From contig NZ_JACRTF010000001.1 of the NCBI RefSeq assembly GCF_014385165.1, forward strand, positions 2,790,001-2,854,000: DNA of 64,000 bases, in the 5' to 3' direction. Origin of the DNA: Jilunia laotingensis (GTDB lineage: Bacteria; Bacteroidota; Bacteroidia; Bacteroidales; Bacteroidaceae). Within the stretch, counting starts at the first letter, position 1, and each line of letters starts with the position of its first letter. Position numbers and translations under genes: made by a program. Below, in pieces: positions 14,433-58,492 of the stretch. Under the pieces are notes generated by a model. It did no database searches. It worked only from the letters and a program-made list of their open reading frames with translations, and had not been told where the DNA came from.

Positions 14433-14608
14433 GATAAAATCACTATAAATGACGGGTGAAATAGCGATTGCCAACAGATAGAATACCCATTTTCATCGGA
14501 TAAAGTATTAATCATCATCAGATGAAACAACCATTTCCAACAAATGAAGCATTCATTTCCATTAAAACGAGGCTAAATTTACTTGAAATGAGCTATAATT
14601 CCCGTTTC
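14433..14608. repeat. Degenerate tandem array with 22-bp period (array A)
   Basis: Consecutive 22-bp units start at 14433, 14455, 14477, 14499, 14521, 14543, 14565 and 14587. Several units begin GATGAAA, GATAAAG or GGTGAAA and end CAACA, CATCA or CATCG. Centres are A/T-rich and variable (for example ACCATTTCCAACA in the unit at 14521). The period is not a multiple of 3, so it is not a coding repeat. The remaining DNA at 13980-14430 shows no convincing gene. Confidence 0.6.
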
Positions 14609-14952
14609 TTTTCTCTATTTCTCTTCTTTCGGTGAAGGTTTCTTTTGTGACGGAATGAGATGATAATTCTATGATATTTGTCATTTGGAAAGGACAGGGA
14701 AATAAGTGCTGTTTTATGTAACTCCTGTCTTTGTTTTATTATCAAAGTGGAAAACTGTGATTGCTCTACAATCCGTTTTTTCTCATCATATGTATCATCG
14801 CCCGGAATAACAATACTCATGACGAACGAGAGAAACAAAGTGTCAGAAAGACAAATCGACCTAGGGTCATTATATGCTTGATTCGACAGGATAGAATTTA
14901 TAGACATGAATGCACTATTTGGATTCTCTGCTTTTTTATATTCGATGCCCAA
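14593..14952 (-). other. Doubtful 119-codon open frame
   Basis: An open frame starts MGIEYKKAENPNSAF and ends in a basic, low-complexity tail (RHKRNLHRKKRNREKKREL). I recognise no family. It overlaps the end of the 22-bp array and its start abuts the HTCS promoter divergently. It may be a chance frame or a decayed gene. Confidence 0.2.
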
Positions 14953-14968
14953 TTTAAAAGAAGGAAAT

Positions 14969-15000
14969 TTTGCACATCTGTTGTTTTTCGCTTAAATTTG
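14969..15000 (+). promoter_or_regulatory. Promoter of the fructan HTCS transcript
   Basis: TTTG (14969-14972), a 20-bp spacer and TAAATTTG (14993-15000) give a full match to the Bacteroides primary sigma-factor promoter. Transcription would begin near 15007, about 30 nt before the small ORF at 15036. This fits constitutive expression of the regulator. Confidence 0.75.
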
Positions 15001-15035
15001 TAATTTATCGGAGACAACATCAATTGGATAATACC

Positions 15036-15227
15036 ATGAAATACAACAGATTCTATGCTACAGGGATATTGATTTGGATATTACTTTTCCTGACTTTTCC
15101 CTTGCTTCCCCGTTTTTCAGGAACTGATTCACTAAATCCGGCCAAAGTGGAATTAATGTATTATCCGGTGGTTCATTCGAATAATAATATGCGTAAGATA
15201 CAAGTTATAGATAACACAACAGAATAA
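15036..15227 (+). CDS. Small membrane peptide in the HTCS leader
   Basis: This is a 63-codon frame from ATG 15036. A start at 14970 would lie inside the promoter. The peptide begins MKYNRFYATG, has one hydrophobic stretch (ILIWILLFLTFPLLPRF, about 11-27) and then a polar tail ending DNTTE. It ends 6 bp before the HTCS ATG and must be on the same transcript. I do not recognise a family. It could be a real micro-protein that interacts with the sensor, or a leader ORF that sets HTCS translation. Confidence 0.5.
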   Translation: MKYNRFYATGILIWILLFLTFPLLPRFSGTDSLNPAKVELMYYPVVHSNNNMRKIQVIDNTTE

Positions 15228-15233
15228 CAATTC

Positions 15234-17975
15234 ATGAAAACTATATATTTGATTTCTCTCTTTTTACTTGTCTTTATGGCGGGATGCAAGAATGATGCAC
15301 CGCGCTATGTCATCGGTGTGTCTCAGTGTAGCGATGACAGTTGGCGGCACAAGATGAATGGGGAGATAGAACGGGAAGCGATGTTTTACGATGGGGTAGC
15401 CGTGGAGATACGTTCTGCTCACGATGATAATGCAAAACAACGAGAGGACATCCGTTATTTCATCGATAAGAAGGTCGATTTGCTGATTGTAACGCCTAAT
15501 GAGGCTGCTCCTATTACTCCGGTGGTGGAGGAGGCTTTTGATGAGGGGATACCTGTGATTGTCGTAGACCGGAAAATCCTTTCGGATAAGTATACCGCCT
15601 TTATGGGGGCGGATAATTATGAAATAGGCAGGGAAGTAGGTAAATACTTGGCGGCAAAGTTGGGAGGAAAAGGAAATGTCGTAGAACTAACAGGGCTGAG
15701 TGGCTCTACGCCTGCTATGGAACGGCACCAGGGATTCATGAGTGCCATCAGTGCTTATCCTGATATTCATCTGTTGGCCAAAGCCGATGCGGCATGGGAA
15801 CGTGATCCGGGACGTGTCATTATGGATTCGCTTTTACGGATTTATCCTCGGATAGATGCTGTCTACTCGCATAACGACCGGATTGCACCCGGAGCATTTG
15901 AAGCGGCCGATCAGTTGGGACGGGCGGATGATATCGTATTTGTCGGGATCGATGCATTGCCGGGCAAAGGCAATGGAGTGGAATTGGTGTTGGACAGTGT
16001 GTTGGATGCCACTTTCATTTATCCTACCAACGGGGATAAGGTAGTGCAACTGGCTATGGATATTCTTAACATGCAACCCTTTCCGCGTGAGACGATTATG
16101 GAAACTGCGATTGTAGACCCGGTCAATGCTCCCGTGATGAAACTGCAAACAGCTCATATTGCTGACTTGGACAATAAGATAGAGACTTTGAACGGACGTA
16201 TCGGTGGCTATCTGTCCCGGTATGCCACCCAGCAAGTCGTTCTTTACGGCAGCTTGCTCGTTCTATTGCTGGTAGCCGGATTGCTATTGGTGGTTTATAA
16301 GTCCCTCCGTTCAAAAAACAGGTTGAATATAGAGCTGTCGAAACAAAAGGCGCAGTTGGAAGAGCAGCGTGACCAGCTTTCCGAACAACGGGATCAACTC
16401 ATACAACTGTCGCATCAGTTGGAAGAGGCTACCCATGCCAAACTGGTGTTTTTTACGAACATATCCCATGACTTTCGCACTCCGCTGACATTGGTAGCCG
16501 ATCCGGTGGAGCAATTGCTTGCGGACAAATGTCTTTCCGGTGATCAGCATCGTTTGTTGCTGCTTGTCCAGCGCAACGTGAATATCCTGTTACGTCTTGT
16601 CAACCAGATTCTTGATTTCCGTAAGTATGAAAATGGGAAAATGGAGTATTCGCCTGTATCTGTAGACTTGCTGCAATGTTTTGAGAACTGGAATGAAGCT
16701 TTTCAAGCGGCCATACTTAAAAAGCACATCCATTTCTCATTTGAAAGCGAACCCCATACGGATTACCATACTTCAGCGGACATCGAAAAGTTGGAACGTA
16801 TTTACTATAATCTCCTTTCCAATGCTTTTAAATTTACTCCGGAGAACGGAAAGGTGGCAGTGAGTCTTTCTCCTTTTGAAAAAGAGGGACAAGCGTTTTT
16901 CCGTTTTACGGTAGCCAATACCGGTAGTCTGATTTCTGCGGAACATATACGTAGTATTTTCGATCGTTTCTATAAGATAGACATGCATCACTCCGGATCG
17001 GGAATCGGTTTGGCGTTGGTGAAGGCATTTGTTGAAATTCATGGGGGCACGATTCGCGTAGAAAGCGATGAACGGCAAGGAACAGTGTTTACGGTAGAAC
17101 TTCCGGCAAATAAAGGGCAGTCCGATATCGTTCCTCCTTCTTCGGAAGTGTCCATCCCCTCGAACTTACCGGCCGACTTGACGGAGGAGGAAGGAGAGAT
17201 GGAGCAAGGGTATGATTCTAATCGGATGTCGGTGCTGATCATTGACGATAATGCGGATATACGTTCTTATATCCACGGCCTTTTAAGTGCAGAGTACGCT
17301 GTGATTGAAGCCGCTGATGGGGCGGAAGGTATTCGCAAGGCAATGAAGTTCGTGCCCGATCTTATCATTTCGGATGTCATGATGCCGGGGATAGACGGTA
17401 TCGAGTGTTGCCGCCGCTTAAAGAGTGAGTTGCAGACTTGCCACATTCCCGTGATATTGCTGACGGCTTGCTCACTCGATGAACAACGTATTCAGGGGTA
17501 TGACGGAGGTGCGGATTCATATATTTCCAAACCTTTCAATTCGCAGCTTCTGATGGCACGTATCCGGAATCTTATCGATTCGCATCAGCGCCTGAAACAG
17601 TTCTTTGGCGACAGGCAAACCTTGGCAAAAGAGGACATTTGTGAATTGGATAAAGATTTTGTCGAAAAGTTCAAGATGCTTGTTGAAGAGAGGATGGGCG
17701 ATTCCGGTTTGAATGTGGAAGACTTGGGGAGAGAGATGGGATTGAGCCGTGTGCAGCTTTATCGGAAACTGAAATCGCTGACTAATTATGCCCCCAATGA
17801 ATTACTACGCATGGCTCGCCTGAAAAGGGGAGCTTCGCTGTTGGCTTCTTCCGGTATGACAGTAGCGGAAATTGCATATGAGGTCGGGTTCACTTCTCCT
17901 TCTTATTTCACGAAGTGCTATAAAGAGCAGTTCGGAGAAAGTCCGACCGACTTTCTGAAACGAAAAGGAAAATAA
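15234..17975 (+). CDS. Hybrid two-component regulator with periplasmic fructose-sensor-type domain
   Basis: The protein has 913 residues. The N-terminal hydrophobic segment ends FMAGC (possible lipobox or anchor). A type-I periplasmic sugar-binding domain follows (about 24-310, YVIGVSQCSDDSWR, VTPNEAAPITPVVEEAFDEGIPVIVVDRK). Then come a membrane helix (about 330-350), a coiled coil with repeated EQRDQL (about 362-395), the HisKA H-box ISHDFRTPLTL (His about 412) and an HATPase with GSGIGLALVKAF. The receiver domain starts about 664 (VLIIDDNADIR, phosphoacceptor Asp about 712 in ISDVMMPG). An AraC-type DNA-binding domain ends the protein (about 815-913). This architecture is that of BT1754, whose sensor binds fructose and activates the levan locus. 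It is therefore the likely activator of the operon at 873-13386. Confidence 0.93.
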   Translation: MKTIYLISLFLLVFMAGCKNDAPRYVIGVSQCSDDSWRHKMNGEIEREAMFYDGVAVEIRSAHDDNAKQREDIRYFIDKKVDLLIVTPNEAAPITPVVEEAFDEGIPVIVVDRKILSDKYTAFMGADNYEIGREVGKYLAAKLGGKGNVVELTGLSGSTPAMERHQGFMSAISAYPDIHLLAKADAAWERDPGRVIMDSLLRIYPRIDAVYSHNDRIAPGAFEAADQLGRADDIVFVGIDALPGKGNGVELVLDSVLDATFIYPTNGDKVVQLAMDILNMQPFPRETIMETAIVDPVNAPVMKLQTAHIADLDNKIETLNGRIGGYLSRYATQQVVLYGSLLVLLLVAGLLLVVYKSLRSKNRLNIELSKQKAQLEEQRDQLSEQRDQLIQLSHQLEEATHAKLVFFTNISHDFRTPLTLVADPVEQLLADKCLSGDQHRLLLLVQRNVNILLRLVNQILDFRKYENGKMEYSPVSVDLLQCFENWNEAFQAAILKKHIHFSFESEPHTDYHTSADIEKLERIYYNLLSNAFKFTPENGKVAVSLSPFEKEGQAFFRFTVANTGSLISAEHIRSIFDRFYKIDMHHSGSGIGLALVKAFVEIHGGTIRVESDERQGTVFTVELPANKGQSDIVPPSSEVSIPSNLPADLTEEEGEMEQGYDSNRMSVLIIDDNADIRSYIHGLLSAEYAVIEAADGAEGIRKAMKFVPDLIISDVMMPGIDGIECCRRLKSELQTCHIPVILLTACSLDEQRIQGYDGGADSYISKPFNSQLLMARIRNLIDSHQRLKQFFGDRQTLAKEDICELDKDFVEKFKMLVEERMGDSGLNVEDLGREMGLSRVQLYRKLKSLTNYAPNELLRMARLKRGASLLASSGMTVAEIAYEVGFTSPSYFTKCYKEQFGESPTDFLKRKGK

Positions 17976-18018
17976 ACCAGCATATTGAATATAAATAAAC
18001 TCTAATATTAGATACTTC

Positions 18019-20871
18019 ATGAAGAAATTACTATCTCTGCCTCCGAATCTTGTAGATTGTTTCCATGAACTGGAAGGCGTGGAGGCTTCCGAATGGTTTT
18101 GTACTTCCGACCCCGTAGGTGCGAAGTTAGGTTCGGGAGGGGGAACGACTTGGCTATTGCAGGCCTGCCACGAATATGATGCTAATCAAGATTCTTTTTC
18201 CACTTGGTTGGGCAGTGAAAAACGAATCTTGCTCCATGCCGGGGGACAGAGCCGCAGACTGCCGGGGTATGCTCCTTCGGGCAAGATATTAACCCCGATA
18301 CCTGTTTTTAGCTGGGAGAGAGGGCAGAAGCTTGGCCAGAATTTGCTTTCGTTGCAACTTCCTTTGTACGAAAGAATTATGAATATGGCTCCCGAGAAAG
18401 TGCATACGTTGATAGCCAGTGGAGATGTCTATATTCGTTCGGAAAAACCGTTGCAGGAGATTCCTGAAGCCGATGTGATTTGTTATGGACTTTGGGTGAA
18501 CCCTTCATTGGCTACTCATCATGGCGTGTTTGTTTCCGACCGGAAGACTCCGGATGTACTCGACTTTATGTTACAAAAGCCTTCTCTTGCCGAACTGGAA
18601 GGATTGGCAAAGACACATCTTTTTCTGATGGATATCGGTATCTGGTTGCTAAGCGACCGTGCCGTGGAGTTGTTGATGAAACATTCCAGGAAGAAAGATT
18701 CCGGCAATATCACTTTTTATGATCTTTATTCGGACTATGGACTGGCACTGGGTAGCCAACCGAAAGTAAAAGATGAAGAATTGAACAGTCTTTCGGTTGC
18801 TATCTTGCCTTTACCGGGTGGGGAGTTTTATCATTATGGCACCAGCCGGGAATTGATATCCTCTACATTGGCTGTTCAGGAGAAAGTCCGCGATCAACGT
18901 CTCATCATGCATCGGAAAGTGAAGCCGAATCCGGCCATTTTCGTTCAAAACTCTTCCACCAATATTGCATTCTCAACTGCGAATGAAAACTTGTGGATTG
19001 AAAATAGCTATGTGGGTAAAGGCTGGCGGTTAGGTTCCCGGCAGATTATAACCGGAGTACCGGAAAATGATTGGAAGATTCGTTTACCGGACGGAATCTG
19101 CCTAGATGTGGTTCCTATGGGTGACAAAGGCTTTGTTGCGCGTCCTTACGGCTTGGATGATGTTTTCAAAGGTGATATATACGCGCCCCATACCAGTTTT
19201 ACCGGGATACCTTTTGAAGAATGGATGTCACGGCGAAACATTACACGTGATGATATTCCAGGATGTACGGATGATTTACAGGCTGCATCTATTTTTCCTT
19301 TAACGGAATCGGTAGACGATCTTGGCGTGCTTCTCCGATGGATGACTTCGGAACCTGAACTGGTGGAAGGACGTATGTTATGGTTGAATGCTCAAAAAAT
19401 CTCTGCGGATGAAATCTCTGCAAGTGCCAATTTGCAACGTTTGTATACACAGCGCGCTGCTTTTCGCCGGAACAATTGGAAAGCACTGTCTGCTAATTAT
19501 GAGAAGAGTGTTTTTTATCAGCTTGATTTGGAAGATGCTGCACATGAATTTGTAAAACAGGGACTTGATACTCCGCGGGTTTTGCCGGAGGATGCATCGC
19601 AAATGTTGCAAATGCACAACCGTATGTTCCGGGCACGTATCATGGAACTGGAAGGTAAACCGGAGGCGAAGGAAGAGGGAAACGCTGCTTTCGACCTTTT
19701 ACGTAACGGACTATTGGGAGAGGTTTGCAAGCAGAAATGTCAACCGAAGCTGAATGTTTATTCCGATCAGATTGTGTGGGGACGAAGTCCTGTGCGCATT
19801 GATGTTGCCGGAGGTTGGACGGATACTCCTCCCTATTCGCTTTATTCCGGTGGGAATGTCGTAAACCTGGCCATTGAGTTGAATGGGCAGCCTCCTTTGC
19901 AGGTGTATGTCAAGACATGCAAGGAACCGCATGTCGTGCTTCGTTCCATAGATATGGGGGCGATGGAAATTGTGAATACCTACGATGAGTTACAGGATTA
20001 TTGTAAAATAGGTTCTCCTTTCTCCATTCCTAAAGCGGCTTTGGCTTTGGCAGGGTTCTTGCCGCAATTTTCTGAGGGAAGCTATGGTTCGTTAAGGGAA
20101 CAATTAGAGGCTTTCGGTGCTGGAATAGAAGTCACTTTGCTTGCTGCCATACCTGCGGGATCAGGATTGGGTACAAGTTCCATTCTTGCCTCTACCGTGT
20201 TGGGTGCCATTAATGATTTTTGTGGTCTGGCATGGGATAAGAATGAAATATGCCGTTGCACGTTGGTTCTGGAACAACTGCTTACTACGGGTGGGGGTTG
20301 GCAAGATCAGTATGGTGGAGTCTTTTCCGGAGTGAAGTTGCTGCAAACGGAAGCCGGCTTTGACCAGACTCCATTGGTGCGTTGGTTGCCCGACCAACTT
20401 TTCACTGCCCCAGAGTACAGAGACTGCCATTTGTTGTACTACACCGGAATCACCCGTACTGCGAAAGGCATATTGGGAGAGATCGTTCGTTCCATGTTCC
20501 TCAATTCCGGTAAACACCTTGCCTTGCTTTCGGAGATGAAAGTCCATGCGATGGATATGAACGAGGCTATTCTACGTGGAAACTTCTCTGGTTATGGCAG
20601 ACTAATAGGAAAAACCTGGTTGCAGAACAAAACGCTGGATACCGGAACGAATCCACTGGAAGTGGAGAGTATAATCCGCTTGATAGAAGATTATACACTG
20701 GGGCATAAGTTGCCTGGAGCAGGTGGTGGCGGTTATCTTTATATGGTGGCGAAAGATCCTCAGGCGGCTGTCTGCATCCGTCGTATATTAACGGAATATG
20801 CTCCTAATCCTCGGGCACGTTTTGTTGATATGACTTTATCGGATAAAGGATTGCAAGTGTCGAGGAGTTAG
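18019..20871 (+). CDS. fkp: Bifunctional L-fucokinase / GDP-fucose pyrophosphorylase
   Basis: The protein has 950 residues, the length of Bacteroides Fkp. The N-terminal half is an L-fucose-1-phosphate guanylyltransferase with the nucleotide-binding loop HAGGQSRRLPGYAPSGKI (about 74-91). The C-terminal half is a GHMP kinase. It carries WGRSPVRIDVAGGWTDTPP (about 588-606), the ATP loop PAGSGLGTSSILAS (about 712-725) and KLPGAGGGGYLYMV near the end. It makes GDP-fucose from salvaged fucose in two steps for capsule and glycoprotein fucosylation. It lies 43 bp after the HTCS stop and could be read through from it, but a metabolic link to fructan is not evident. Confidence 0.95.
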   Translation: MKKLLSLPPNLVDCFHELEGVEASEWFCTSDPVGAKLGSGGGTTWLLQACHEYDANQDSFSTWLGSEKRILLHAGGQSRRLPGYAPSGKILTPIPVFSWERGQKLGQNLLSLQLPLYERIMNMAPEKVHTLIASGDVYIRSEKPLQEIPEADVICYGLWVNPSLATHHGVFVSDRKTPDVLDFMLQKPSLAELEGLAKTHLFLMDIGIWLLSDRAVELLMKHSRKKDSGNITFYDLYSDYGLALGSQPKVKDEELNSLSVAILPLPGGEFYHYGTSRELISSTLAVQEKVRDQRLIMHRKVKPNPAIFVQNSSTNIAFSTANENLWIENSYVGKGWRLGSRQIITGVPENDWKIRLPDGICLDVVPMGDKGFVARPYGLDDVFKGDIYAPHTSFTGIPFEEWMSRRNITRDDIPGCTDDLQAASIFPLTESVDDLGVLLRWMTSEPELVEGRMLWLNAQKISADEISASANLQRLYTQRAAFRRNNWKALSANYEKSVFYQLDLEDAAHEFVKQGLDTPRVLPEDASQMLQMHNRMFRARIMELEGKPEAKEEGNAAFDLLRNGLLGEVCKQKCQPKLNVYSDQIVWGRSPVRIDVAGGWTDTPPYSLYSGGNVVNLAIELNGQPPLQVYVKTCKEPHVVLRSIDMGAMEIVNTYDELQDYCKIGSPFSIPKAALALAGFLPQFSEGSYGSLREQLEAFGAGIEVTLLAAIPAGSGLGTSSILASTVLGAINDFCGLAWDKNEICRCTLVLEQLLTTGGGWQDQYGGVFSGVKLLQTEAGFDQTPLVRWLPDQLFTAPEYRDCHLLYYTGITRTAKGILGEIVRSMFLNSGKHLALLSEMKVHAMDMNEAILRGNFSGYGRLIGKTWLQNKTLDTGTNPLEVESIIRLIEDYTLGHKLPGAGGGGYLYMVAKDPQAAVCIRRILTEYAPNPRARFVDMTLSDKGLQVSRS

Positions 20872-20895
20872 TACAAAACGGTATTGACAAAATAG

Positions 20896-20978
20896 CACCC
20901 TTACTACAGTTTGAACTGCACTCCTAAAGTTTTGTATCTAACTTTTGGGGTGCAGTTCATCATTTTGTAGTGAGGGTG
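20896..20978. terminator. Long imperfect inverted repeat after fkp
   Basis: Arms of about 36-39 bp (20896-20931 and 20940-20978) have an 8-nt loop. Long matching blocks are GAACTGCAC and AAAGTT, and the outer ACTACA/CACCCT segments also pair with a few mismatches. It lies between the convergent fkp and LruC genes and is probably a bidirectional terminator. Confidence 0.65.
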
Positions 20979-21042
20979 ATGTTCTTATAAATCCAAGGCT
21001 TTTAGGAAGAACCTTGTTTTTTCTTTATTTCATAATCGTTGG

Positions 21043-22320: not shown

Positions 22321-22359
22321 ATTTTGTTTGTTTTGGTGATTGTTTGTTTTTAGATGTTG

Positions 22360-22391
22360 CAAAGGTGGAAATAATTTGTATATAAAGCAAA
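22360..22391 (-). promoter_or_regulatory. Probable promoter of the LruC lipoprotein
   Basis: Reading the minus strand: TTTG (22391-22388), a 20-bp spacer and CACCTTTG (22367-22360), one base off TAnnTTTG. It supports the start at 22320. Confidence 0.5.
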
Positions 22392-22477
22392 TAAAGTTGT
22401 ATATTTTATCCAAATAGGGGTGTTTTCTTGTTTGAATGACTCTTTTTCTCTACTTTAGTTGTTTGAATTGATAAGTT

Positions 22478-28301: not shown

Positions 28302-28682
28302 GTAGAGATAGCAAAATTGTGCTTTTGTTTAACAAGTTTAGTGCTTTCGATACGATGGAGTGTATCGCTCAACGGAAGTATGTTTATCATTCTGACGTTT
28401 TGTCAATGTGATATTCCTGTCTGCTCAGGAGGGTGAAATCTACCGTCAATAGGGCATTTGGTTTCAAAAAACGCAGCCATTTCGAATTAGGATTTATTCT
28501 TTTGTTACCCCCTTGGCAAGTTGTGTTGCAAATGTAGTGAAAGTTTGTTCTCTTTCGATGAATTGTGAGAAATAATATTGTTTTAACTTTCTTTTTGATG
28601 GCATGGAAAGGTTGAAATTAGGGAGCTGTTATGTGCTAACGAATGTGAATGAACTTGGTTTTAGGGCTGAAAAGAGCGGGCC

Positions 28683-28836
28683 GGTGAGGAAGAGACGGTT
28701 GGTCGGTGGGGAAGAGGTGGTTGGTCGGTGAGGAAGGGACGGTTGATCGGTGAGGAATTAATGGTTGATCGGTGAGGAATAGTTACTCAACACGATAGAA
28801 ATAGCTATCTGACACGTTGGGAATAGCTATCCAACG
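28683..28836. repeat. Tandem array with exact 22-bp period (array B)
   Basis: Seven units start at 28683, 28705, 28727, 28749, 28771, 28793 and 28815. An eighth, poor unit may follow. The first five begin GGTGAGGAA or GGTGGGGAA. Units 1-4 end GGTTGGTC or GGTTGATC, and units 5-7 end CAACA, TGACA or CAACG. Units 5-7 share a central ATAGYTAYC. So the array changes type midway while keeping its phase. It lies in the 28391-28970 gap, which has no other clear gene. TATATTTG at 28860-28867 just after it could be the -7 of the next gene. Confidence 0.75.
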
Positions 28837-28970
28837 GGATGGATAACGGACTTTTTGTGTATATTTGTGAAATTTTACCCGGATAGCACACCGTTTCGTT
28901 CCTATAGCGAAGGGATGGTGTCATCCGAAACTATAAATATTGGAATAATTGATACTGAATGTTTAGATAA

Positions 28971-30176
28971 ATGGTCAGAATGTCAAAAAGAGAACTCTAT
29001 ATTTTCAATCCGGACAACGATCTGGCATTGGCAAATGGTGAAGCAAACTATATGCCTCCGGCCTCTGCCCAGCAGATGGCTTCCGACTTGGCTTTACTCC
29101 CGGCATGGTATGCTGCCCCCGGCAGCGCGGTGTTGGCGCCATCGGCTTACAATCTTGTTTTTCTCCGTGAAATGCAACGTCTGTTGCCAATTCCGGTGGA
29201 CTTGATGACTGCACCGGAACTGGCTTCGGACGGGCAGTTTACCCCTGTTCCCTGGGGCTGGAATCCGGCTTTGAGGAAAAAGCTGCTGCTTGCGGGGGTA
29301 GAGGAAGACGGGCTGCCTTCTTTGGGACATATTGCAGAGTTGCGCAGACTTTCCCACCGTATGCAGGTGGTAGAGTTGTTATCCCGTTTGCAATTGAATG
29401 AATATTTCTGTGGGGAATCGCATTATCTGACTCGGCCTGAGGAATGGCAGAGCTTTGTCGAAGAGCATAAGTCATCTTTGTTGAAAGCCCCTCTTTCGGG
29501 TAGTGGTAAAGGGCTGAACTGGTGCAAGGGTATGTTTACTTCTTCCATTTCCGGGTGGTGCAAGCGGATAGCAGCATTGCAGGGTGGGATAATGGCAGAG
29601 CCTGTATATGATAAGGTAATAGATTTTGCTATGGAATTCTGTTCGGACGGTTTAGGTAAGGTTCGTTTTGTGGGTTACTCTGTATTTGCCACGAATCGGA
29701 GTGGAGCCTATGAAGGCAACGTGTTGCAATCCGACGAGCAGACGAGGCGTGAGCTTTCGGCTTATGTCCCGGGTGAATCGACACTTCGATTGCAGTCGGT
29801 GCTTGAAGAAGAATTATCCTTGCGTTTCGGTCGTCATTATGCCGGCTACTTGGGCGTGGATATGATGCTTTGCCGTTTCCCCGGTTCTGCCCCCGAATTC
29901 CGAATTCATCCCTGTGTCGAAATCAACCTGCGGATGAATATGGGAGTCGTGGCTCATATGTTGTATGACAGATATGTGGCTCCTTCATCGTGCGGCCGTT
30001 TTTCCATTACTTATCATCCGGCTCCCCATGAGGCATTAAAAGACCACGAGCGGATGAGGTCTGAATATCCGTTGGAAATTGAAAACGACAAGATTGTTTC
30101 AGGATATCTTCCATTGGTTCCGGTACATAGGTGGACATCGTACGGGGCATTGGTAAAGATTGAAAGGATTTCCTAG
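28971..30176 (+). CDS. Uncharacterised protein, ATP-grasp-like
   Basis: The protein has 401 residues; ATG 28980 (MSKRELYIFNPDND) is an equally good start. I do not recognise a named family. Features suggest an ATP-grasp enzyme. SLLKAPLSGSGKGLNWC (about 171-187) resembles the Lys plus glycine-rich ATP loop, EPVYDKVIDFAMEF resembles the hinge, and VEINLRMNMG near 320-330 resembles the Glu-x-Asn-x-Arg metal site. No signal peptide is present, so it is cytoplasmic. If correct, it would ligate a carboxylate to an amine or thiol, and its substrate is unknown. It is convergent with the GHL10 gene 9 bp away. Confidence 0.6.
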   Translation: MVRMSKRELYIFNPDNDLALANGEANYMPPASAQQMASDLALLPAWYAAPGSAVLAPSAYNLVFLREMQRLLPIPVDLMTAPELASDGQFTPVPWGWNPALRKKLLLAGVEEDGLPSLGHIAELRRLSHRMQVVELLSRLQLNEYFCGESHYLTRPEEWQSFVEEHKSSLLKAPLSGSGKGLNWCKGMFTSSISGWCKRIAALQGGIMAEPVYDKVIDFAMEFCSDGLGKVRFVGYSVFATNRSGAYEGNVLQSDEQTRRELSAYVPGESTLRLQSVLEEELSLRFGRHYAGYLGVDMMLCRFPGSAPEFRIHPCVEINLRMNMGVVAHMLYDRYVAPSSCGRFSITYHPAPHEALKDHERMRSEYPLEIENDKIVSGYLPLVPVHRWTSYGALVKIERIS

Positions 30177-41104: not shown

Positions 41105-41133
41105 AGAAAAAGTAAGGGTAGGAGCGTACTTGC

Positions 41134-41216
41134 AAAAGCACGTACTTAACATCGTATAAAGTACGTATTCTAATCGGGTAAAATACGTACTTTATACGAT
41201 GTTAAGTAGGGCTTTT
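41134..41216. repeat. Large hairpin (27-bp perfect core) between convergent genes
   Basis: Core arms 41143-41169 and 41182-41208 are perfectly complementary over 27 bp with a 12-nt loop. The outer part (AAAAGC with GCTTTT) extends the stem to about 35 bp. It is much longer than needed for termination. It may be a bidirectional terminator or a small palindromic element. Confidence 0.75.
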
Positions 41217-50450: not shown

Positions 50451-50493
50451 GTAAGAAAAAAGGAGATGGATAACAAAAAGGTATAATAAATGC

Positions 50494-50549
50494 AGGAGTC
50501 AATAACAGGCGTTTTCTTTAAAAAAGGTAGACGACTGTTATTGACTCCT
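50494..50549 (-). terminator. Hairpin at the end of the exported-protein operon
   Basis: A perfect 15-bp stem (50494-50508 with 50535-50549) has a 26-nt loop. It lies about 45 bp beyond the stop at 50592 and upstream of purL. No T run directly follows. Confidence 0.6.
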
Positions 50550-50591
50550 ACGGATGGAATGAATTTTATTTCACATATACTTTGCCATGAA

Positions 50592-51494: not shown

Positions 51495-51507
51495 AATTAC
51501 TATTTAT

Positions 51508-51545
51508 TTAATTTGATTTCAAAATTTGTACCTAATTATATCTAT
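51508..51545 (-). pseudogene. Remnant of a C25-like gene 3' end
   Basis: Read on the minus strand this segment translates, after an in-frame stop, as LGTNFEIKLN and a stop. It closely matches the last residues of the C25 protease at 54290-56611 (LGANFEIKISN). It sits just before the 300-residue gene, exactly as the protease gene sits before the 435-residue paralogue. Presumably a duplicated protease gene was deleted here, leaving only its tail. Confidence 0.5.
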
Positions 51546-51637
51546 GCGCGGACAGTAAGGAAGCGGATAGTAAAGAAGATGTTTCAGATGTTTCCAAACC
51601 GATTTTAAATCAAAGCATGATAGAACCATATTCTCTA

Positions 51638-52969
51638 TTATTGAATTATCACCTTGCATGATTCCCGGCTATTATCTGAGCGCGAAAGTATTAGGATGTA
51701 ATTCCCCGCATGAAGACCGGTAAGAGGAATATCGAGTATGCCGTCCCGAATGACAAGATCTGTCCTATATTGCAATATTCCATCAAAAGAATACAAATCG
51801 AGCTTTGTGAAATCCGATTCCGAGAAAGAGATGGATAGCTGCCGGTTTTCGACAGGGCTATTCAGTACCCGGAACCGAGGAGTGGATTGATGTTCAATCA
51901 CGGGAACCATTTCCTCGCAGGTACACTTGTAGGAATGGCAGAAAAGAGCCTTCCCATTGCGCCAGACACCAGCCAGAATAGGGTTGAAGCCAGTCACTAA
52001 ATACGGGAAAGGTCGGGTAAATACGTATTCACTGCCGATACCTTCAGTCCAGCTTTCATACGGGGCGGAATAAAAATAATATTTTCGACGGGGAATACCT
52101 TCTAGTAAAATTGTATCCACATGCAAAACCTTACATTCAGGATTGGGATCATCATCATTATCAGGATAAATAAAAGCATAACCATCTTCATACTCCATCC
52201 TATCACCTGCCTTGAGATTGAAATCATAAAGCATTCTTTCAGGAATAACTTCATTTGCAGCAAAAGGCGATGGATACAATGTCGTATCTACAAAGAATAT
52301 TTGACGATTTTCCTCACGGATCGCCCCAGAGTATATTTTTTCCGTGGGATGCTTGCAGGGGTGAACAAAAATCTTCTTATATGTCTTATTGGATATCAAG
52401 GTATCTTCATTGCTTATTATTTTTTTATAGCCATCAATTCCATATTGCTTATTTATGATCCATTCACATGAACCATCCATTATAAAAGGCTTATATTGAT
52501 AGCTCAATTTTTCTGTAACCGGATAATCGCATAGCTCATTATGATAAGTGTAGAAAACCTGATAAGGTATTGAACTTATGTCAGAGATTAACACAAGAAA
52601 AAGTTCATTATGGCTTCCACCTCTTATTTGGTAGGATAAATCCCTTAGACATTTTTCATTCGTCTCTGGTTCGTCTTTAATCTCCGTTTCCCTGATGAAG
52701 ACTGTGTCATTCGAACAGGTGATTTCTACATTTATATTGCTGCAGGAAGAATTTACCAGAATATCTTTATGGGAAAATCCTAATAGAAAACAGCTTTCTG
52801 TGAAGTTGTAGCTTTCGTTATATGAAAACATCTCATAACGATCTTTTATCGCTTTATCCAGACATTCTCCAAGCTTTACATTCTCGACTTGAATCGGTTT
52901 AATGTTGGGCTGTGCATACAGAAATAGATTGCATGCACACAATAAAATCAGAAATAATAATTTATCCAT
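51638..52969 (-). CDS. Exported protein with type IX-like C-terminal sorting tail (paralogue 2)
   Basis: The protein has 443 residues. The signal peptide ends LFLYAQP. An N-terminal region (about 20-150, with KDILVNSSCSNINVEI and SNDTVFIRETEIK) precedes the shared YKPFIMDGSCEWI domain. The sorting domain at the end (RVLNSPVENRQLSISFS to CKVIIQ) is nearly identical to its neighbours. It shares most of its length with the protein encoded just upstream (8 bp gap), so the two arose by recent tandem duplication. The function is unrecognised. Confidence 0.78.
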   Translation of the reverse strand: MDKLLFLILLCACNLFLYAQPNIKPIQVENVKLGECLDKAIKDRYEMFSYNESYNFTESCFLLGFSHKDILVNSSCSNINVEITCSNDTVFIRETEIKDEPETNEKCLRDLSYQIRGGSHNELFLVLISDISSIPYQVFYTYHNELCDYPVTEKLSYQYKPFIMDGSCEWIINKQYGIDGYKKIISNEDTLISNKTYKKIFVHPCKHPTEKIYSGAIREENRQIFFVDTTLYPSPFAANEVIPERMLYDFNLKAGDRMEYEDGYAFIYPDNDDDPNPECKVLHVDTILLEGIPRRKYYFYSAPYESWTEGIGSEYVFTRPFPYLVTGFNPILAGVWRNGKALFCHSYKCTCEEMVPVIEHQSTPRFRVLNSPVENRQLSISFSESDFTKLDLYSFDGILQYRTDLVIRDGILDIPLTGLHAGNYILILSRSDNSRESCKVIIQ

Positions 52970-52977
52970 ATTCTTTA

Positions 52978-54285
52978 TTATTGAATTGTCACCTTACACG
53001 ATTCCCGGCTATTATCTGAGCGCGAAAGTATCAGGATGTAATTCCCCGCATGAAGACCGGTAAGAGGAATATCGAGTATGCCATCCCGAATGACAAGATC
53101 CATCCTATATTGCAGTATTCCATCGAATGAATATAATTCGAGCTTGGTGAAATCCGATTCTGAGAAAAATATGGATAATAGTCGGTTCTCAACTGGGTTA
53201 TTCAGTACCCGGAACCGAGGAGTGGATTTATGTTCAATGACGGGAACCATATCCTCGCAAGTACACAGGCCGGCAAAACAACAGTAAAGTTCTTTCCCAT
53301 TGCACCAAACACCAATCAAATTAGGATTGTAACCGGTCATTAAAGGCGGGAAAGGTTCGGTGAATACGTATTCGCTACCGATACCCTCAGTCCAAGTATC
53401 CCAATATGGTTCATCAAAATAAAATTTCCGGCGAGGAATGCCTTCCAGCAATATTGTGTCTATATGTGAAACCTGGAGAATGCCCGGAAGATCCCTGGAA
53501 TTTTCGTATTCCATCCTGTCACCCACCTGGAGATTGAAATCGTAAAGCTTCTTTTCCGGAATAATTTCATTTGCAGTATAAGGCGACGGATACAATGTCG
53601 TATCTACAAAGAATATTTGGCGGTTTTCTTCACGGATCGCACCAGCGTATATTTTTTCCGTGGGATGCTTACAGGGGTGAACAAAGATCTTCTTATATGC
53701 CTTATGGGATATCAAAGTATCTTCATTGCTTATTATTTTTTTATGCCCATCAATTCCATATAACGTATTTATGATCCACTCACACGAACCATCCATTATA
53801 AAAGGCTTATATTGATAGTCTGATTTTTCAGTAACCGGATAGACACATTCATTGCTACCGGTATAGAAAGCTTGATAAGGGATTGAACTAACATCGGATG
53901 TTAACACAAGAACAAGCGCATGATGGCTTCCTACCCTAATTTGGTAGGATAAATCCCTTAGGCATTTTTCATCTGTATTAGTTTCGCTTTTAATCTCTGT
54001 TTCCCTGATGAAGACTGTGTCATTCGAACAGGTGATTTCTACATTTATATTGCTACCGGAAGAATTCACCAGAATATCTTTATGGGAAACTTTTAATAGA
54101 TAATCATTGTCAATGCAATCCTTTTCATACGAAAACATCTCATAACGATCCTTTATTACTTTATCCGTATTGCATAGTTTGACCTTCGTGACATGAGCCT
54201 GTTCAACTGCCGCTTGCGAATGAGGTTGGGCATACAAAAAGAGATTGTATACACAAAAAATGATCAGAAATAACAGTTTATTCAT
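52978..54285 (-). CDS. Exported protein with type IX-like C-terminal sorting tail (paralogue 1)
   Basis: The protein has 435 residues with the same layout as the 443-residue paralogue. The signal peptide ends LFLYAQP, an N-terminal domain of about 130 residues follows, then YKPFIMDGSCEWI with the conserved HPCKHPTEKIYAGAIREENRQ block, and last a sorting tail. A Cys-rich loop (CCFAGLCTCEDMV) precedes the tail. It starts 4 bp after the C25 protease stop, which suggests coupled expression and possibly a role as partner or substrate of that protease. The function is unrecognised. Confidence 0.78.
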   Translation of the reverse strand: MNKLLFLIIFCVYNLFLYAQPHSQAAVEQAHVTKVKLCNTDKVIKDRYEMFSYEKDCIDNDYLLKVSHKDILVNSSGSNINVEITCSNDTVFIRETEIKSETNTDEKCLRDLSYQIRVGSHHALVLVLTSDVSSIPYQAFYTGSNECVYPVTEKSDYQYKPFIMDGSCEWIINTLYGIDGHKKIISNEDTLISHKAYKKIFVHPCKHPTEKIYAGAIREENRQIFFVDTTLYPSPYTANEIIPEKKLYDFNLQVGDRMEYENSRDLPGILQVSHIDTILLEGIPRRKFYFDEPYWDTWTEGIGSEYVFTEPFPPLMTGYNPNLIGVWCNGKELYCCFAGLCTCEDMVPVIEHKSTPRFRVLNNPVENRLLSIFFSESDFTKLELYSFDGILQYRMDLVIRDGILDIPLTGLHAGNYILILSRSDNSRESCKVTIQ

Positions 54286-54289
54286 AATG

Positions 54290-56611
54290 TTAATTGCTTA
54301 TTTTAATTTCAAAATTTGCACCTAATTCTATTTCAGTTCCCGCATCCAATGTAATTCCCTCTGAAACTTCCAATACAATATCCGATCCCGACTTAACAAC
54401 GAAATCTCCTGTAGCCTTGGTCGGATCAACAGAATTTCCTGTGGTTATTTGACTACCTTTGATATAATGAGTGCCGGTCACTGATTCATTCTGTAAATAG
54501 ATAGGAGCGACATAAGGTATATAGTCATGTTTATACAATGTCAAAACATAATTTTGGGGTAAAGGATAAAATGTAGCAGTTCTTCCGACTTGAAAATAAA
54601 TACGTTGGTCACTAAAAAGACCTCTTAATGATATATTTGTACCATCGACTCCCGTATTCACAGTCAAACTATTCGATGATTTGGTAACAGACGCATTAAG
54701 AAAGCGAGAAGGAGTATTCGTCCACATTTCAAATTCGGGACAACCTATCAGGTTATGCGTCAAAGCCAGCCAATGAAAATCACTTCCTTTATAATCGGCT
54801 TTGGAAAAGGCTTCGGCTTGTCCTATCTTTCCTGAAAAGAATTTAATCCGATTTACAAATTTTTTTTCTAAAGCTGTAGAACTCCCCGTCCAACCTTCTC
54901 GGGTATTTCCCAAAAACGCAACTCCACCGTATTTCCCTCCAACAGTGAACGACTCTCCTACATTATATTTCATATCATAAGTGACTCCACCACCCACATA
55001 TATATCATATGGAGTGACGGAACAAGCTATAGAATAAAGGACTGACGGATAATTAAAATTGACTAGATTATCAAGGCCATTACCTGTTTCGATCTCATTC
55101 CATGGGGCGGGATAGACTCCTTCCCGGGCATTGACAAGATAATGTCCTGAATTATTGTTACCATTACTTTTTGCCTTCACTCCACTGGGACTCCCATGGG
55201 CAAACCAGCTAACAAAACCATGAAAATTATTATTCATCAGATCAATCACATCCTTTCCCGTGGGATAGGTTGGAATTGAATCAAGATGTTCCGGATATTC
55301 TCTCAAGATTGTAGTATCAGGGAAAATGGTATAAAATTCATTGGCAATAGCCTCCCCTTCATGATCGTTTTGCATTTTGTCCGACTCCATATACAATGCC
55401 TTTTTCAAGTAAGCATAATTACCTTTGCCGGGATTCTGCTCATAAAGCAATAGTTTATCAATATAATTATTGATCTCTTCACCATCCCGACATAAAAGGC
55501 GTCCGACAAATAATTCCGGATTATAATCCAAACCATCCGATTTCTCTCCTAAATCGGAATCTCCATCTCGATTCCAATTTCCATTCAAGTCACTAAAATA
55601 CAAATCGGAAGGAATTTGGACGTTGCCACGATAGTAATCTGTGCCATACCGAATCGGCACAAACTCCCTTCGTCCTCCCAATAACACATACCTTGTTCCC
55701 TTGTCATAAGCCAGTTTTAGGTATTGGCGCAACTTGCCCGCGTCATCGGACAAGTTGGATACTTCATCTTTCGTTATGGAAGCATCACTCAATATGTCCT
55801 GCATCGTCACAATACCCGCATTCAGACCTTTCTGACGTTTCCAATCGACCAGTCTCCTAAAGTAAGGGGCTAAGCTTCTAGAAGTGATCACCACATATTC
55901 ATAAGCCGGAAGATTCATGGTTGAAGCGGTTGCCCGAACCTGTGAACGGGAATTCAGTATTCGGCTTATGTCCGATTTATTCTCTACGAAACCAAGCATT
56001 TCTTTCAGTTCTGCCGATTTTCTGGGGGGAGAAGCAATGGGAGATATTCTTTTTGCTACATTTCTCGATGACACATTATTATAATTATAGTTGATGGTAA
56101 AGCCAACCGAAGAATGAAACAGCAGTTGATTGGAGGAAGCCACGTACTGTACGGGTGTCACCTTTACCGTCAAGATTCGTTTGTCACCGTCCAGATACCC
56201 TTCATCTATAATCTGGGCTATTTTCTCAGGATATGCACCGGAAGTGACAAAAGAAGATGGGATGAACTCGCTCTTTACACTATTCAAAGAGATTGGGATG
56301 GGTGCTTGAATAGGTAATAAGGGGGCGGACAGATCAATCGGTATACTACCGGAAGCATTTATATCAATTGAAAAAGAGACAGGTTCGTTAGGAACAATAA
56401 AACGGAGAATGCGGTAAGGCAATGAAGGTGTCCCTACACTGTCATTTGCCGAGCAATCCTCATACGACAAATTAGCATACGTATTTCCGTCTTCCTGCAA
56501 CTGATTGTCGATAATCAGTTTATCAGGATCGAAAGCAACCGTATGATTAATTTGGGCTTGTATGCCCATATGGCATAAAAAACAAGCTATCAGTAATACA
56601 TATTGTTTCAT
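54290..56611 (-). CDS. Gingipain-like C25 family cysteine peptidase
   Basis: I use ATG 56611 (MKQYVLLIACFLCHMG), since an ATG three codons earlier only adds MYI. This gives 773 residues. The signal peptide ends GIQAQ. A C25-type propeptide (about 20-215) precedes the catalytic domain, which starts at YEYVVITSRSLAPYFRRLVDWKRQKG and carries His about 472 (WFAHGSPSG) and Cys about 530 (SIACSVTPYD), the gingipain dyad arrangement. An Ig-like part and a terminal segment ending ELGANFEIKISN follow. The terminus is not a classical Por sorting tail. It is probably a secreted or surface protease. It lies 4 bp before the paralogue 1 gene in the same operon. Confidence 0.85.
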   Translation of the reverse strand: MKQYVLLIACFLCHMGIQAQINHTVAFDPDKLIIDNQLQEDGNTYANLSYEDCSANDSVGTPSLPYRILRFIVPNEPVSFSIDINASGSIPIDLSAPLLPIQAPIPISLNSVKSEFIPSSFVTSGAYPEKIAQIIDEGYLDGDKRILTVKVTPVQYVASSNQLLFHSSVGFTINYNYNNVSSRNVAKRISPIASPPRKSAELKEMLGFVENKSDISRILNSRSQVRATASTMNLPAYEYVVITSRSLAPYFRRLVDWKRQKGLNAGIVTMQDILSDASITKDEVSNLSDDAGKLRQYLKLAYDKGTRYVLLGGRREFVPIRYGTDYYRGNVQIPSDLYFSDLNGNWNRDGDSDLGEKSDGLDYNPELFVGRLLCRDGEEINNYIDKLLLYEQNPGKGNYAYLKKALYMESDKMQNDHEGEAIANEFYTIFPDTTILREYPEHLDSIPTYPTGKDVIDLMNNNFHGFVSWFAHGSPSGVKAKSNGNNNSGHYLVNAREGVYPAPWNEIETGNGLDNLVNFNYPSVLYSIACSVTPYDIYVGGGVTYDMKYNVGESFTVGGKYGGVAFLGNTREGWTGSSTALEKKFVNRIKFFSGKIGQAEAFSKADYKGSDFHWLALTHNLIGCPEFEMWTNTPSRFLNASVTKSSNSLTVNTGVDGTNISLRGLFSDQRIYFQVGRTATFYPLPQNYVLTLYKHDYIPYVAPIYLQNESVTGTHYIKGSQITTGNSVDPTKATGDFVVKSGSDIVLEVSEGITLDAGTEIELGANFEIKISN

Positions 56612-56711
56612 GATATACATTTTATATTTAAGGATTATGCCTCCTTTGAAAAGGAGACATAATTCGGAATTATCCAGTTATTTTATTAGAAACAGCACAT
56701 GGTTCTGTTCA

Positions 56712-57941
56712 TCATTCCAGCACCATACGTTTGGAGTCGATCACCGTACCGTCAATGATCAAAGCGTACACATACATTCCCGGTTCGAAATCAGTGGCAC
56801 TTATCTGTACTTTGCCGGTAGTGGTTCCCGGTGATAAGGGATAACGTTTCAGTAGTCCTCCATTCAAATTAAAGATGCTGATAGATGCGCTTCGGGCATC
56901 CTGCGACAATTGATAAGCAATCTCCGTAGACTGGTTGAACGGATTAGGGGTATTTTGATAGAGTTTTGGAATGGACATACGCATGGGATTGGAGTCTACG
57001 ACTTCATTTCCCTCATTTGCAGCGGCATTTCTTGGCAATATCTCCCCGGATTTAAGTTGATTCACTTCCGTAGTCAATTCCTGAATGGACTGCACTAGGA
57101 GAGGGATCATCTCGATATAGTTAATGCTCAGACCACCCTGTTCGTTTTCATAAACGAGATTGGGATATACTTCCTTCAATTCCTGGGCGATCAGACCGTA
57201 ATGGGCGCGTGAATAGATTTGAGCTTCATCGAAAGTCAGTTCTTTAGTAGCTGCTACCGTGTCCGTGGCTGAAAGGGCAGCACGAGAGGTGCTGAGAGGA
57301 GATTGCATACTGAATTGAATCGTGTTCAACCGACTTAACTTAGTCATTGCACTTTCTTCCGAATCTGATTGGGAGGATAAAAGAGAAGGGTTGGATGAAG
57401 AAATTACAGGGGTCAACAACATTCCATTGACACTACCGGTTACAAAAACATTTCCCCGGAAATAGCCAGCATAACGTCCGTTTATATAAGTACCGTAATC
57501 GTTATGAACGGATGTAGCATAAATGCCTGCACCTTTATTAGTGCCATAAAGCATTGCCAAGACACCATAGTTGGAACCTGGCGTATAATTACCTGCTATG
57601 CCGATCAATCCAAATGATTGTCCTGTATCGATTGCGGTAGGAGTGTATGCAAAACCGATAACTCCAACATTATAAGCATGGGGAGATAGCCCAACACCCG
57701 CATCAACAGCTCTTGCCCAACCGGAACTAGTTGAAGCATCGCGCGAGGCCGAAAATGTAATAGATTTAGTCGAACTGATTTTAGCTTCCTTTATAGACTC
57801 ACCAGCCGTGTTTATACTCAGGGTAGACAAAGGCACAGCACTGGTAGCTATACCGACTTTACCATCAGCATTAATTTTCACTTGTGAGAAACTTAGCGCA
57901 CAGGTCATTGCAAAGCAAATAAAAATAAAATTCCTTTTCAT
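56712..57941 (-). CDS. Exported protein with S74-type domain and type IX sorting tail
   Basis: The protein has 409 residues. The signal peptide ends ALSFS. The N-terminal part is Gly/Ser/Thr-rich and fibre-like (ADGKVGIATSAVPLSTLSI). An S74 intramolecular-chaperone-like segment (AHYGLIAQELKEVYPNLVYE, about 250-270) leads into a helix (IPLLVQSIQELTTEVNQLK). The last about 85 residues (LYQNTPNPFNQSTEIAYQLS to ALIIDGTVIDSKRMVLE) are a classical type A sorting domain. It is first in the five-gene operon. A trimeric surface fibre is a reasonable guess. It shows no catalytic hydrolase site. Confidence 0.8.
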   Translation of the reverse strand: MKRNFIFICFAMTCALSFSQVKINADGKVGIATSAVPLSTLSINTAGESIKEAKISSTKSITFSASRDASTSSGWARAVDAGVGLSPHAYNVGVIGFAYTPTAIDTGQSFGLIGIAGNYTPGSNYGVLAMLYGTNKGAGIYATSVHNDYGTYINGRYAGYFRGNVFVTGSVNGMLLTPVISSSNPSLLSSQSDSEESAMTKLSRLNTIQFSMQSPLSTSRAALSATDTVAATKELTFDEAQIYSRAHYGLIAQELKEVYPNLVYENEQGGLSINYIEMIPLLVQSIQELTTEVNQLKSGEILPRNAAANEGNEVVDSNPMRMSIPKLYQNTPNPFNQSTEIAYQLSQDARSASISIFNLNGGLLKRYPLSPGTTTGKVQISATDFEPGMYVYALIIDGTVIDSKRMVLE

Positions 57942-58098
57942 AATACATTAAAATTTAATTTATAATAGGGTTAACTTCTTAAATTCTTCTCATGAAACGT
58001 TCGTTTATGGAGTGACAGGTTCTCAAAAAGTGTTTGTATGTCAAGTGACTTTTAATGTATTGGCAGGCAAAGGGGCTAAGGACACTGTTATACCGAGA

Positions 58099-58129
58099 CA
58101 AAGATAACAAAATTAAATTGTATTTTCAA
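58099..58129 (-). promoter_or_regulatory. Promoter of the exported-protein operon
   Basis: On the minus strand: TTGA (58129-58126), a 19-bp spacer and TATCTTTG (58106-58099). It predicts a leader of about 150 nt to ATG 57941. Confidence 0.6.
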
Positions 58130-58382
58130 TTATTTTAGTTAAATAGTAGCGTGATATGCAATGAAATAGAAAACATCTATTCCATTTATTTTAGAATGGC
58201 AATGAAAAAGGAATTCATGTTGAAATATACCGGTCGTCGATTTATAGTAATCTTTGTATAGTTATTTTGTCGTATACTGTTTTTTGCCATTGTTTGGAAA
58301 TAAGTAAAATAGTATTAGTATATGAAAAAGGGAGTAAGATAAATGGTTGATATACAGTGCTGAATGAATGCTTTTTTACCTC

Positions 58383-58492
58383 GGTGATGAACCCCTTCTT
58401 CCTCGGTGATGAAGGGGGTGTTCCTCACCGAGGAAGGAGGGGTTCATCGGTGTCCTTCAAGGTGTTCATCGGTGAGGGGAAAATGCCGGCAT
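58383..58492. repeat. Tandem array with exact 22-bp period (array C), folding into a 24-bp hairpin
   Basis: Five units start at 58383, 58405, 58427, 58449 and 58471. Four begin GGTGATGAA, GGTGAGGGG or GGTGTCCTT and the third begins ACCGAGGAA. The first four end CCTC or CATC. Segments 58386-58409 and 58425-58448 are complementary over 24 bp with a single G-U wobble and a 15-nt loop. The array fills part of the 57942-58720 gap, which has no other visible gene. Confidence 0.75.

Follow-up and report, generated by a model that had tools for sequence, protein, structure and literature searches.

Three intergenic gaps in a 64,000-nucleotide stretch of the Jilunia laotingensis genome (contig NZ_JACRTF010000001.1, positions 2,790,001 to 2,854,000; this whole stretch is called the window) carry direct repeats with a period of 22 bp, and the question is what keeps this period constant. 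The original prediction had offered a phased protein-binding site, an RNA, or replication slippage. Analysis of the window and of related genomes showed that such arrays form motif families with family-specific spacing, that the half-sites of their units vary independently, that the arrays are biased towards gene ends, and that in one family the units diverge less than the spacers. From these results we infer, with about even confidence, that the arrays are helix-phased sites for lineage-specific dimeric proteins, whose cooperative binding would form blocks between transcription units or at the ends of genes. Readings as RNA, hairpins or slippage products agree poorly with the data: neither the two halves of a unit nor mirror units covary, and G-T mismatches are not biased to one strand.

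Periodic arrays in the window

The window was scanned with an 88-bp self-match at each lag, and lags 8-59 were compared. The lag-22 peaks were at 28671 (0.80), 14452 (0.64), 58365 (0.62) and 41127 (0.45). At all lags except 22 and 44, the top peak was 0.53 (lag 40), and this peak also lay at array 2. The arrays were located as follows; extents are maximal-scoring segments, and the limits of array 4 were set by eye.

Array 1, 14408..14588: 8.2 units of 22 bp, imperfect, with a motif close to GATGAAAT..CATTTC; the divergent gap is bordered by a GNAT gene (-) and a hybrid two-component gene (+)
Array 2, 28679..28842: 7.5 units with a 22-bp period; the core TCGGTGAGGAA, or a close variant, lies at 28681, 28703, 28725, 28747 and 28769, with diverged units thereafter; the divergent gap has an AAA_14 ATPase gene (-) on one side and a gene of unknown family (+) on the other
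Array 3, 58374..58474: 4.6 units with a 22-bp period; TCGGTGATGAA occurs at 58381 and again at 58403, and GTTCCTCACCGAGGAAG at 58420-58436 is an inverted unit; divergent gap ahead of a LysE-type gene (+)
Array 4, about 41124..41200: AAGTACGTACTT-type units at 41136, 41159 and 41181 (steps of 23 and 22 bp); the convergent gap is bordered by a GHL10 gene (+) and a chromate transporter gene (-)

For the gaps of arrays 1-3, none of 1000 dinucleotide shuffles came up to the lag-22 value of the real sequence, whichever lag between 8 and 60 was taken. For the gap of array 4, the real value was reached by 0/1000 shuffles at lag 22 and by 10/1000 at any lag. The exact 22-bp period proposed for three gaps was confirmed, and a signal no stronger than in shuffled sequence, which would have spoken against the proposal, was not observed. 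All three gaps were real and had been placed close to the extents given above; the weaker array 4 had been missed.

The sequences of the arrays had been described as strongly different. The motif of array 1 was indeed distinct, whereas arrays 2 and 3 shared the core TCGGTGANGAA, which array 1 did not have. With up to one mismatch, TCGGTGANGAA had 25 matches in the window (4.4 expected), 8 of them inside arrays 2 and 3. These two arrays were similar to the GTTCC family described below, with 1-4 mismatches per unit; in array 2 the likeness was in the right half-site, with 3-4 mismatches per unit. Arrays 1-3 are not a single sequence family; the class is defined by its period and architecture.

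Spread of the arrays

The FKP gene (18019-20871), located in the interval from array 1 to array 2, served to collect Bacteroidales loci. Of 251 loci, the best 80 were used, the nearest being those of Bacteroides nordii and Bacteroides salyersiae. These loci, 800 kb of Bacteroides xylanisolvens, 400 kb of B. salyersiae, 400 kb of Phocaeicola vulgatus and the window gave 1344 scored gaps, with limits set by a purpose-made gene caller. Lag 22 was found in 52 gaps, lag 21 in 19 and lag 23 in 20, and one Markov-resampled copy of each of the 1344 gaps gave none at lags 21-23. The highest counts at other lags were 25 (lag 44), 16 (lag 14), 13 (lag 8), 13 (lag 46) and 10 (lag 66); lags 44, 46 and 66 are harmonics, and 14 and 8 are short lags. 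Lags 14 and 8 were also raised, and some arrays were of low complexity, for example ACTACTTA or GTTAAAA.

In the window, 3 of 21 gaps carried such repeats. Summed over lags 21-23, where one gap may count twice, the counts were 51/639 in the FKP loci, 20/361 in B. xylanisolvens, 12/175 in B. salyersiae and 5/148 in P. vulgatus. Three further genomes taken as Bacteroidales had 5/52, 0/58 and 0/60 gaps at these lags, and four genomes taken as other Bacteroidota had 1/172, the two groups being presumed from a full-length or a split PurL. In 150 kb of E. coli K-12, none of 63 gaps showed self-similarity at 21-23 bp. Arrays of 21-23 bp are frequent in Bacteroidaceae and not universal in Bacteroidales. 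A lack of copies in other Bacteroides genomes, the second result that had been named as grounds for giving up the prediction, was not found. The median array extent was 3.7 units, and 67 of 88 arrays rounded to 3-5 units, 36 of those to four.

Motif families and fixed spacing

Sequences differed widely between arrays, and many units were roughly dyad-symmetric. In a test with 20 column permutations per array (threshold p 0.05 or less), 62% of 52 lag-22 arrays, 80% of 20 lag-23 arrays and 37% of 19 lag-21 arrays were dyad-symmetric; none of the 16 lag-14 arrays was.

The arrays grouped into families, each having a unit and a period of its own, with as many as about 25 arrays of a family in one genome. 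The ATAGTGACGSTAT family has a 22-bp period and is carried by several B. xylanisolvens arrays. Paired ATAGTGACGSTAT at 22 bp was present in 8 of the 60 genomes of a genus sample, with up to 59 matches per genome and 0 for the reversed control; after clustering there were 25 arrays in genome G003, 24 in G028 and 7 in G050. The GTTCCT..AGGAAC (GTTCC) family at 22 bp was present in five of six genomes (control 0), with 13 arrays in G003 and 14 in G028. Units of the AACAYSSSSRTGTT type at 23 bp had 36 matches per strand in B. salyersiae and 40 in B. nordii (control 0), and none in four other genomes. The AACAYSSSSRTGTT arrays listed for contig C1 of genome G002 appeared crowded in the 1.95-2.97 Mb interval, and none of those listed lay in the 0.80-1.94 Mb interval. 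Many arrays of genome G009 had the symmetric form ATAGTGWCACTAT alongside the CGSTAT form, and an array of G067 had ATAGTGWCACTAT in all four units (up to one mismatch). This form may reflect lineage-specific drift of the motif, perhaps along with its protein.

Spacing was measured in stretches fetched without regard to motif (800 kb for ATAGTGACGSTAT). Neighbouring ATAGTGACGSTAT units were exactly 22 bp apart in 32 of 32 cases and formed ten runs of four units and one run of three; the 20 ATAGTGACGSTAT matches in B. salyersiae were isolated, none with neighbours. The distance was exactly 23 bp for AACAY units (5/5) and for AAGTATATACTT units (4/4). Spacing therefore belongs to the family, and family-specific units at fixed spacing support the proposal that unit length is kept above sequence. 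When steps of up to 70 bp were allowed, all 42 clusters had 22-bp steps except for one 44 and an 11, 11 pair (one locus, seen twice).

Comparison of 24 overlapping orthologous pairs of the ATAGTGACGSTAT family (drawn from 38 unique arrays, orthologues included, with pairs sharing loci) showed 96 differences in 1248 unit positions versus 221 in 648 spacer positions. One orthologous pair differed at 3 of 52 unit positions versus 17 of 27 spacer positions. In four orthologous pairs reached by flank homology, the differences were 12/208 in units versus 32/108 in spacers, and the spacing was kept. Fixed spacing is claimed because of the motif-blind stretches, the clusters with 70-bp steps allowed and the pairs found by their flanks.

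The gap before FKP was compared in five ruminant-gut Bacteroidaceae (L037 at 9060-9470, L064, L067, L042 and L051). The flanks aligned and the 23-bp period was the same in all five, with three motifs: about AGACCCACCTGTGTCT in three loci, a second in L042 and a third in L067. Unit number varied among the five. As read from the alignment, a terminator-like hairpin and T run come first, then the 23-bp units, then a promoter-like stretch. To judge by these aligned sequences, the architecture outlives the motif at this gap. A tRNA origin of the conserved flank before FKP was rejected, since ARAGORN found none there.

Half-sites, folding and covariation

The half-site test used the 78 of 88 arrays that had three or more usable units. 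Complementary cells numbered 1644 against 1639.5 expected, and the unit halves had 70 paired versus 554 single changes; no covariation was found inside units. Mirror units 1-4 and 2-3 were compared in 12 of 21 FFRR arrays (one per orthologous group, picked by hand), and no covariation was found here either (z about -1); spacers 1 and 3 of FFRR arrays were not complementary. Mismatches in 29 palindromic arrays in co-directional gaps showed no strand bias (G-T 36 versus A-C 45).

Among the 79 of 88 arrays of foldable length, 73% and 67% (two strands) folded better than z -2, versus 30% of 90 control segments. At 8/34 and 6/61 gene ends a terminator-like signal lay inside the array or at its end, versus a background of 53/237 within 200 bp; the 34 facing gene ends belong to 25 of 38 arrays, one per orthologous group chosen by hand. 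A covarying stem followed by a T run, as in an intrinsic terminator, was not found in the arrays.

Placement relative to genes and on the chromosome

The 38 ATAGTGACGSTAT arrays (orthologues included) were located in 15 convergent, 21 co-directional and 2 divergent gaps. The facing stop codon was 12-110 bp from the array in 32 of them; the first unit was forward in 34 and the last unit reverse in 36. In the whole class of 88 arrays, the flanking genes were co-directional for 49, convergent for 22 and divergent for 17; among the co-directional arrays, 39 were closer to the upstream gene. The gene-end bias is strong in one family and weak for the class. Arrays 1-3 of the window are in divergent gaps, and gene-end placement is therefore not universal. 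In the gap orthologous to that of L096 at 13040, several array-free species among L204-L213 showed long inverted repeats of other sequence (by eye).

Pfam families were obtained for 54 of 76 proteins flanking ATAGTGACGSTAT arrays, some of them mutual orthologues. They included thioredoxin/AhpC, flavodoxin, nitroreductase and others; no recurrent DNA-binding family was present among the 25 of 95 families listed.

Chromosomal spread was analysed on an assumed single circle, with the lengths of G028 and G050 rounded to 6.5 and 4.8 Mb. The position of dnaA was located, but only as a proxy for the origin. The 24 ATAGTGACGSTAT arrays of G028 left an array-free arc of 3.07 Mb (0/50,000 random placements). 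The unevenness was weaker in G050 (7 arrays; arc P 0.008, Rayleigh P 0.012) and G003 (25 arrays; Rayleigh P 0.004, arc P 0.05), and orthologous arrays were common to all three genomes. GTTCC arrays were not clustered in G028 (Rayleigh P 0.24) or G003 (0.84).

Window arrays and their surroundings

Array 3 folded as a 24-bp hairpin (DNA z -6.8); arrays 1 and 2 folded no better than shuffles (z -0.9 and -0.6). Array 4 was embedded in a long inverted repeat (by eye), and it was similar to the AAGTATATACTT 23-bp family of B. salyersiae. The dyad symmetry of single window arrays was not significant, with column permutations as good in 103/500, 178/500 and 41/500 cases (arrays 1, 2 and 3). Arrays 1-3 are atypical: they lie in divergent gaps and have no significant dyad symmetry alone, and arrays 1 and 2 are long.

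The motif of array 1 as a two-unit pattern was found in none of eight genomes. Counterparts of the window arrays were looked for in the nearest species. In L002, no array was seen beside the orthologue of the two-component gene (best lag-22 value 0.36); upstream of this orthologue in L001, the best lag-22 value was 0.56, about 1.3 kb off (5470). The gap of array 2 was covered for 210 bp in L002, with a lag-22 value of up to 0.36. Rfam at gathering score had 0 matches in the window. The genes flanking arrays 1-3 are listed below.

13506..13979, minus strand: GNAT family (PF00583)
15234..17975, plus strand: hybrid two-component protein with periplasmic binding domain, kinase, receiver and AraC-type helix-turn-helix
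27068..28390, minus strand: AAA_14 ATPase (PF13173)
28971..30176, plus strand: no Pfam/NCBIfam match at E 0.001
56712..57941, minus strand: protein with type IX secretion system (T9SS) sorting domain and S74 match
58658..59374, plus strand: LysE-type translocator (PF01810)

The window also contains a C25-type peptidase gene (PF01364) and two T9SS sorting-domain proteins, at 54290-56620, 56712-57941 and 62501-63985.

Favoured reading and alternatives

According to the reading that we favour, the arrays would be clusters of DNA sites with rough dyad symmetry, each 12-17 bp long in the observed families. The distance set by the family (21, 22 or 23 bp) would put the sites on the same helix face, about two turns apart. 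Each family would be bound by its own dimeric DNA-binding protein, and cooperative binding of the sites would give a compact nucleoprotein block. Such blocks, placed downstream of stop codons or in the stretch from a terminator to the following promoter, might insulate transcription units or serve as anchors in chromosome organisation. The motif would drift along with its protein, so that families differ by clade while spacing and unit number stay. The features of a phased operator were present in the class (dyad symmetry, helical phasing and independent half-sites), and conserved units were present in the ATAGTGACGSTAT family, where the comparison carries an ascertainment bias. The phased protein-binding site, one of the options of the original prediction, is supported by the fixed spacing, by units less diverged than spacers in orthologues and by copies in other Bacteroides. 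A wider proposal, which we put forward tentatively and at less than even confidence, is that the arrays reveal an unrecognised class of Bacteroidales DNA-binding proteins with fast turnover of specificity. Within one genome, each such protein would act at as many as about 25 gene ends, through roughly four helix-phased sites apiece; several families would coexist, and the proteins would build insulating or chromosome-positioning blocks.

Several results weigh against binding sites of this kind. No candidate binding protein was found, and the genes adjoining the arrays show no clear theme. Arrays 1-3 lie in divergent gaps, two of them have 7-8 units, and none is dyad-significant alone. Partial dyad symmetry was present at other lags too (3/7 arrays at lag 18, 2/4 at lag 24 and 2/3 at lag 27), and the GTTCC family was looser, with 11 of 15 neighbour distances equal to 22. 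The 27 most symmetric arrays had a slight half-site excess of z 2.0, where phase selection alone gave z 3.5-5.1 in column-permuted controls. The comparison of units and spacers covers one family and overlapping pairs, and its arrays were mostly found by motif, which caps unit divergence; the 24-pair comparison took only arrays with 22-bp steps and hence is silent on spacing. Finally, G050 is without one array in an orthologous gap that is otherwise 97-98% identical, so single arrays are dispensable and can be lost.

It is unlikely, in our judgement, that the arrays are chromosome-organising sites of the SlmA, Noc or MatP type, at which a protein marks a chromosome region and not single genes. 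The clustering of ATAGTGACGSTAT arrays in G028, G050 and G003 fits this idea, and AACATCCGGATGTT-type units resemble short palindromic occlusion sites. However, with orthologous arrays in common the three genomes are not independent, no clustering is seen for GTTCC arrays in G028 and G003, and there are several families per genome. Dispersed selfish repeats without host function, resembling miniature inverted-repeat transposable elements (MITEs) such as BrickBuilt or repetitive extragenic palindromes and bacterial interspersed mosaic elements (REP/BIME), are quite unlikely; their 3' placement would reflect promoter avoidance. The multiple extragenic copies of the arrays, the FFRR outer symmetry with A/T-rich edges, presence or absence between relatives and spacer words such as ATGCCCGGG that recur at several loci are in keeping with such repeats, but the spacers diverge more than the units at orthologous places, and two aligned gaps show no clean insertion or target duplication. 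Exact matches to three family patterns, looked for in viral contigs as a sign of mobile carriage, numbered 0. RAYT (PF01797) was found in 4 of 15 genomes (G003, G019, G050 and G053) and not in array-bearing G016, G028, G009, G004, G001 and G002, with the caveat that genomes may be incomplete; this distribution does not support RAYT as driver of the arrays.

RNA elements, that is, long hairpins acting as terminators or 3' stabilisers, are very unlikely. Placement behind stop codons, the A-rich left and T-rich right edges of ATAGTGACGSTAT arrays, the hairpin of array 3, the inverted repeat of array 4, the frequent strong folding and the inverted repeats of other sequence in the same gap of other species all suit an RNA. 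The RNA option of the original prediction is nevertheless not supported: there is no G-T bias and no covariation within units or between mirror units, spacers 1 and 3 are non-complementary, terminator-like signals lie in arrays or at their ends at 8/34 and 6/61 gene ends (background 53/237), and at the FKP gap the terminator-like hairpin comes before the array. An RNA also gives no reason for the exact 22-bp spacing. Neutral minisatellites arising by slippage with a preferred 22-bp step would account for the whole-unit differences in copy number seen in some relatives (22 bp in L046 and L050) and for a motif replaced with the period retained at the FKP gap. Slippage would homogenise spacers with units, yet the spacers are the diverged part; a single genome has the same motif at some 25 loci whose spacers differ, and arrays are absent or nearly so in sampled E. 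coli and other Bacteroidota. Slippage alone, also among the earlier suggestions, is thus insufficient, and we regard it as scarcely plausible.

If the helix-phased sites proposed here are real, a large human gut order carries dozens of site arrays per genome for yet-unnamed proteins, and the arrays mark gene ends and perhaps chromosome domains. To our knowledge, nucleoid organisation in Bacteroidota is poorly known. The arrays would be ready bait for such proteins and a case in which the architecture of sites persists through motif turnover, and they would be relevant to reading Bacteroides intergenic regions and to designing genetic parts.

Comparison with known systems

In the literature searched, which covered few subscription papers, no account of this array class was found. 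The closest published description found, from the part of the source available, is BrickBuilt, a minisatellite MITE of Porphyromonas gingivalis with intergenic 23-nt tandem units, conserved and non-conserved sites and 19 dispersed copies (PMC4596501). The same portion describes predicted stem loops, unit numbers from 1 to 22.8, and a leader and a tail that carry IS5-type terminal repeats, and also mentions 22-nt repeats for P. gingivalis (PMC4596501). BrickBuilt and the present arrays are alike in occurring in Bacteroidales, in intergenic position, in tandem units of about 23 nt and in many dispersed copies. As far as that text goes, BrickBuilt has MITE ends, whereas ATAGTGACGSTAT arrays have only an A/T edge and mostly 4 units, and the class here has many unrelated motifs. 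In the 20-bp flanks of the 38 arrays of the ATAGTGACGSTAT family, no common leader, tail or terminal inverted repeats of the BrickBuilt type were present; a strong common base was found only at -3 (A, 0.87) and +3 (T, 0.84).

PM2, a near-palindromic B. thetaiotaomicron promoter motif, was set aside as promoter-bound, according to its description in the portion available (PMC7366714). REP/BIME with RAYT, in the excerpt available, resemble the arrays as short extragenic palindromes that are clustered, in many copies and of alternating orientation (PMC2817692). The arrays are likewise multi-copy extragenic palindromes, but they have exact two-turn spacing and differing 9-bp spacers, and RAYT is found in only some of the genomes, as given above.

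Iterons and phased operator arrays are tandem sites of about two helical turns. Iterons are confined to one replication origin, whereas the arrays here occupy dozens of chromosomal gaps. MatP and SlmA belong to macrodomain and occlusion site systems (PMC3116907), as does Noc. Their many dispersed short palindromic sites, unevenly spread and bound by one protein, are like the present arrays, for which the protein is presumed and an uneven spread was seen in one family of three related genomes. The sites of MatP, SlmA and Noc are single sites, unlike the arrays here, which are phased and belong to several families per genome.

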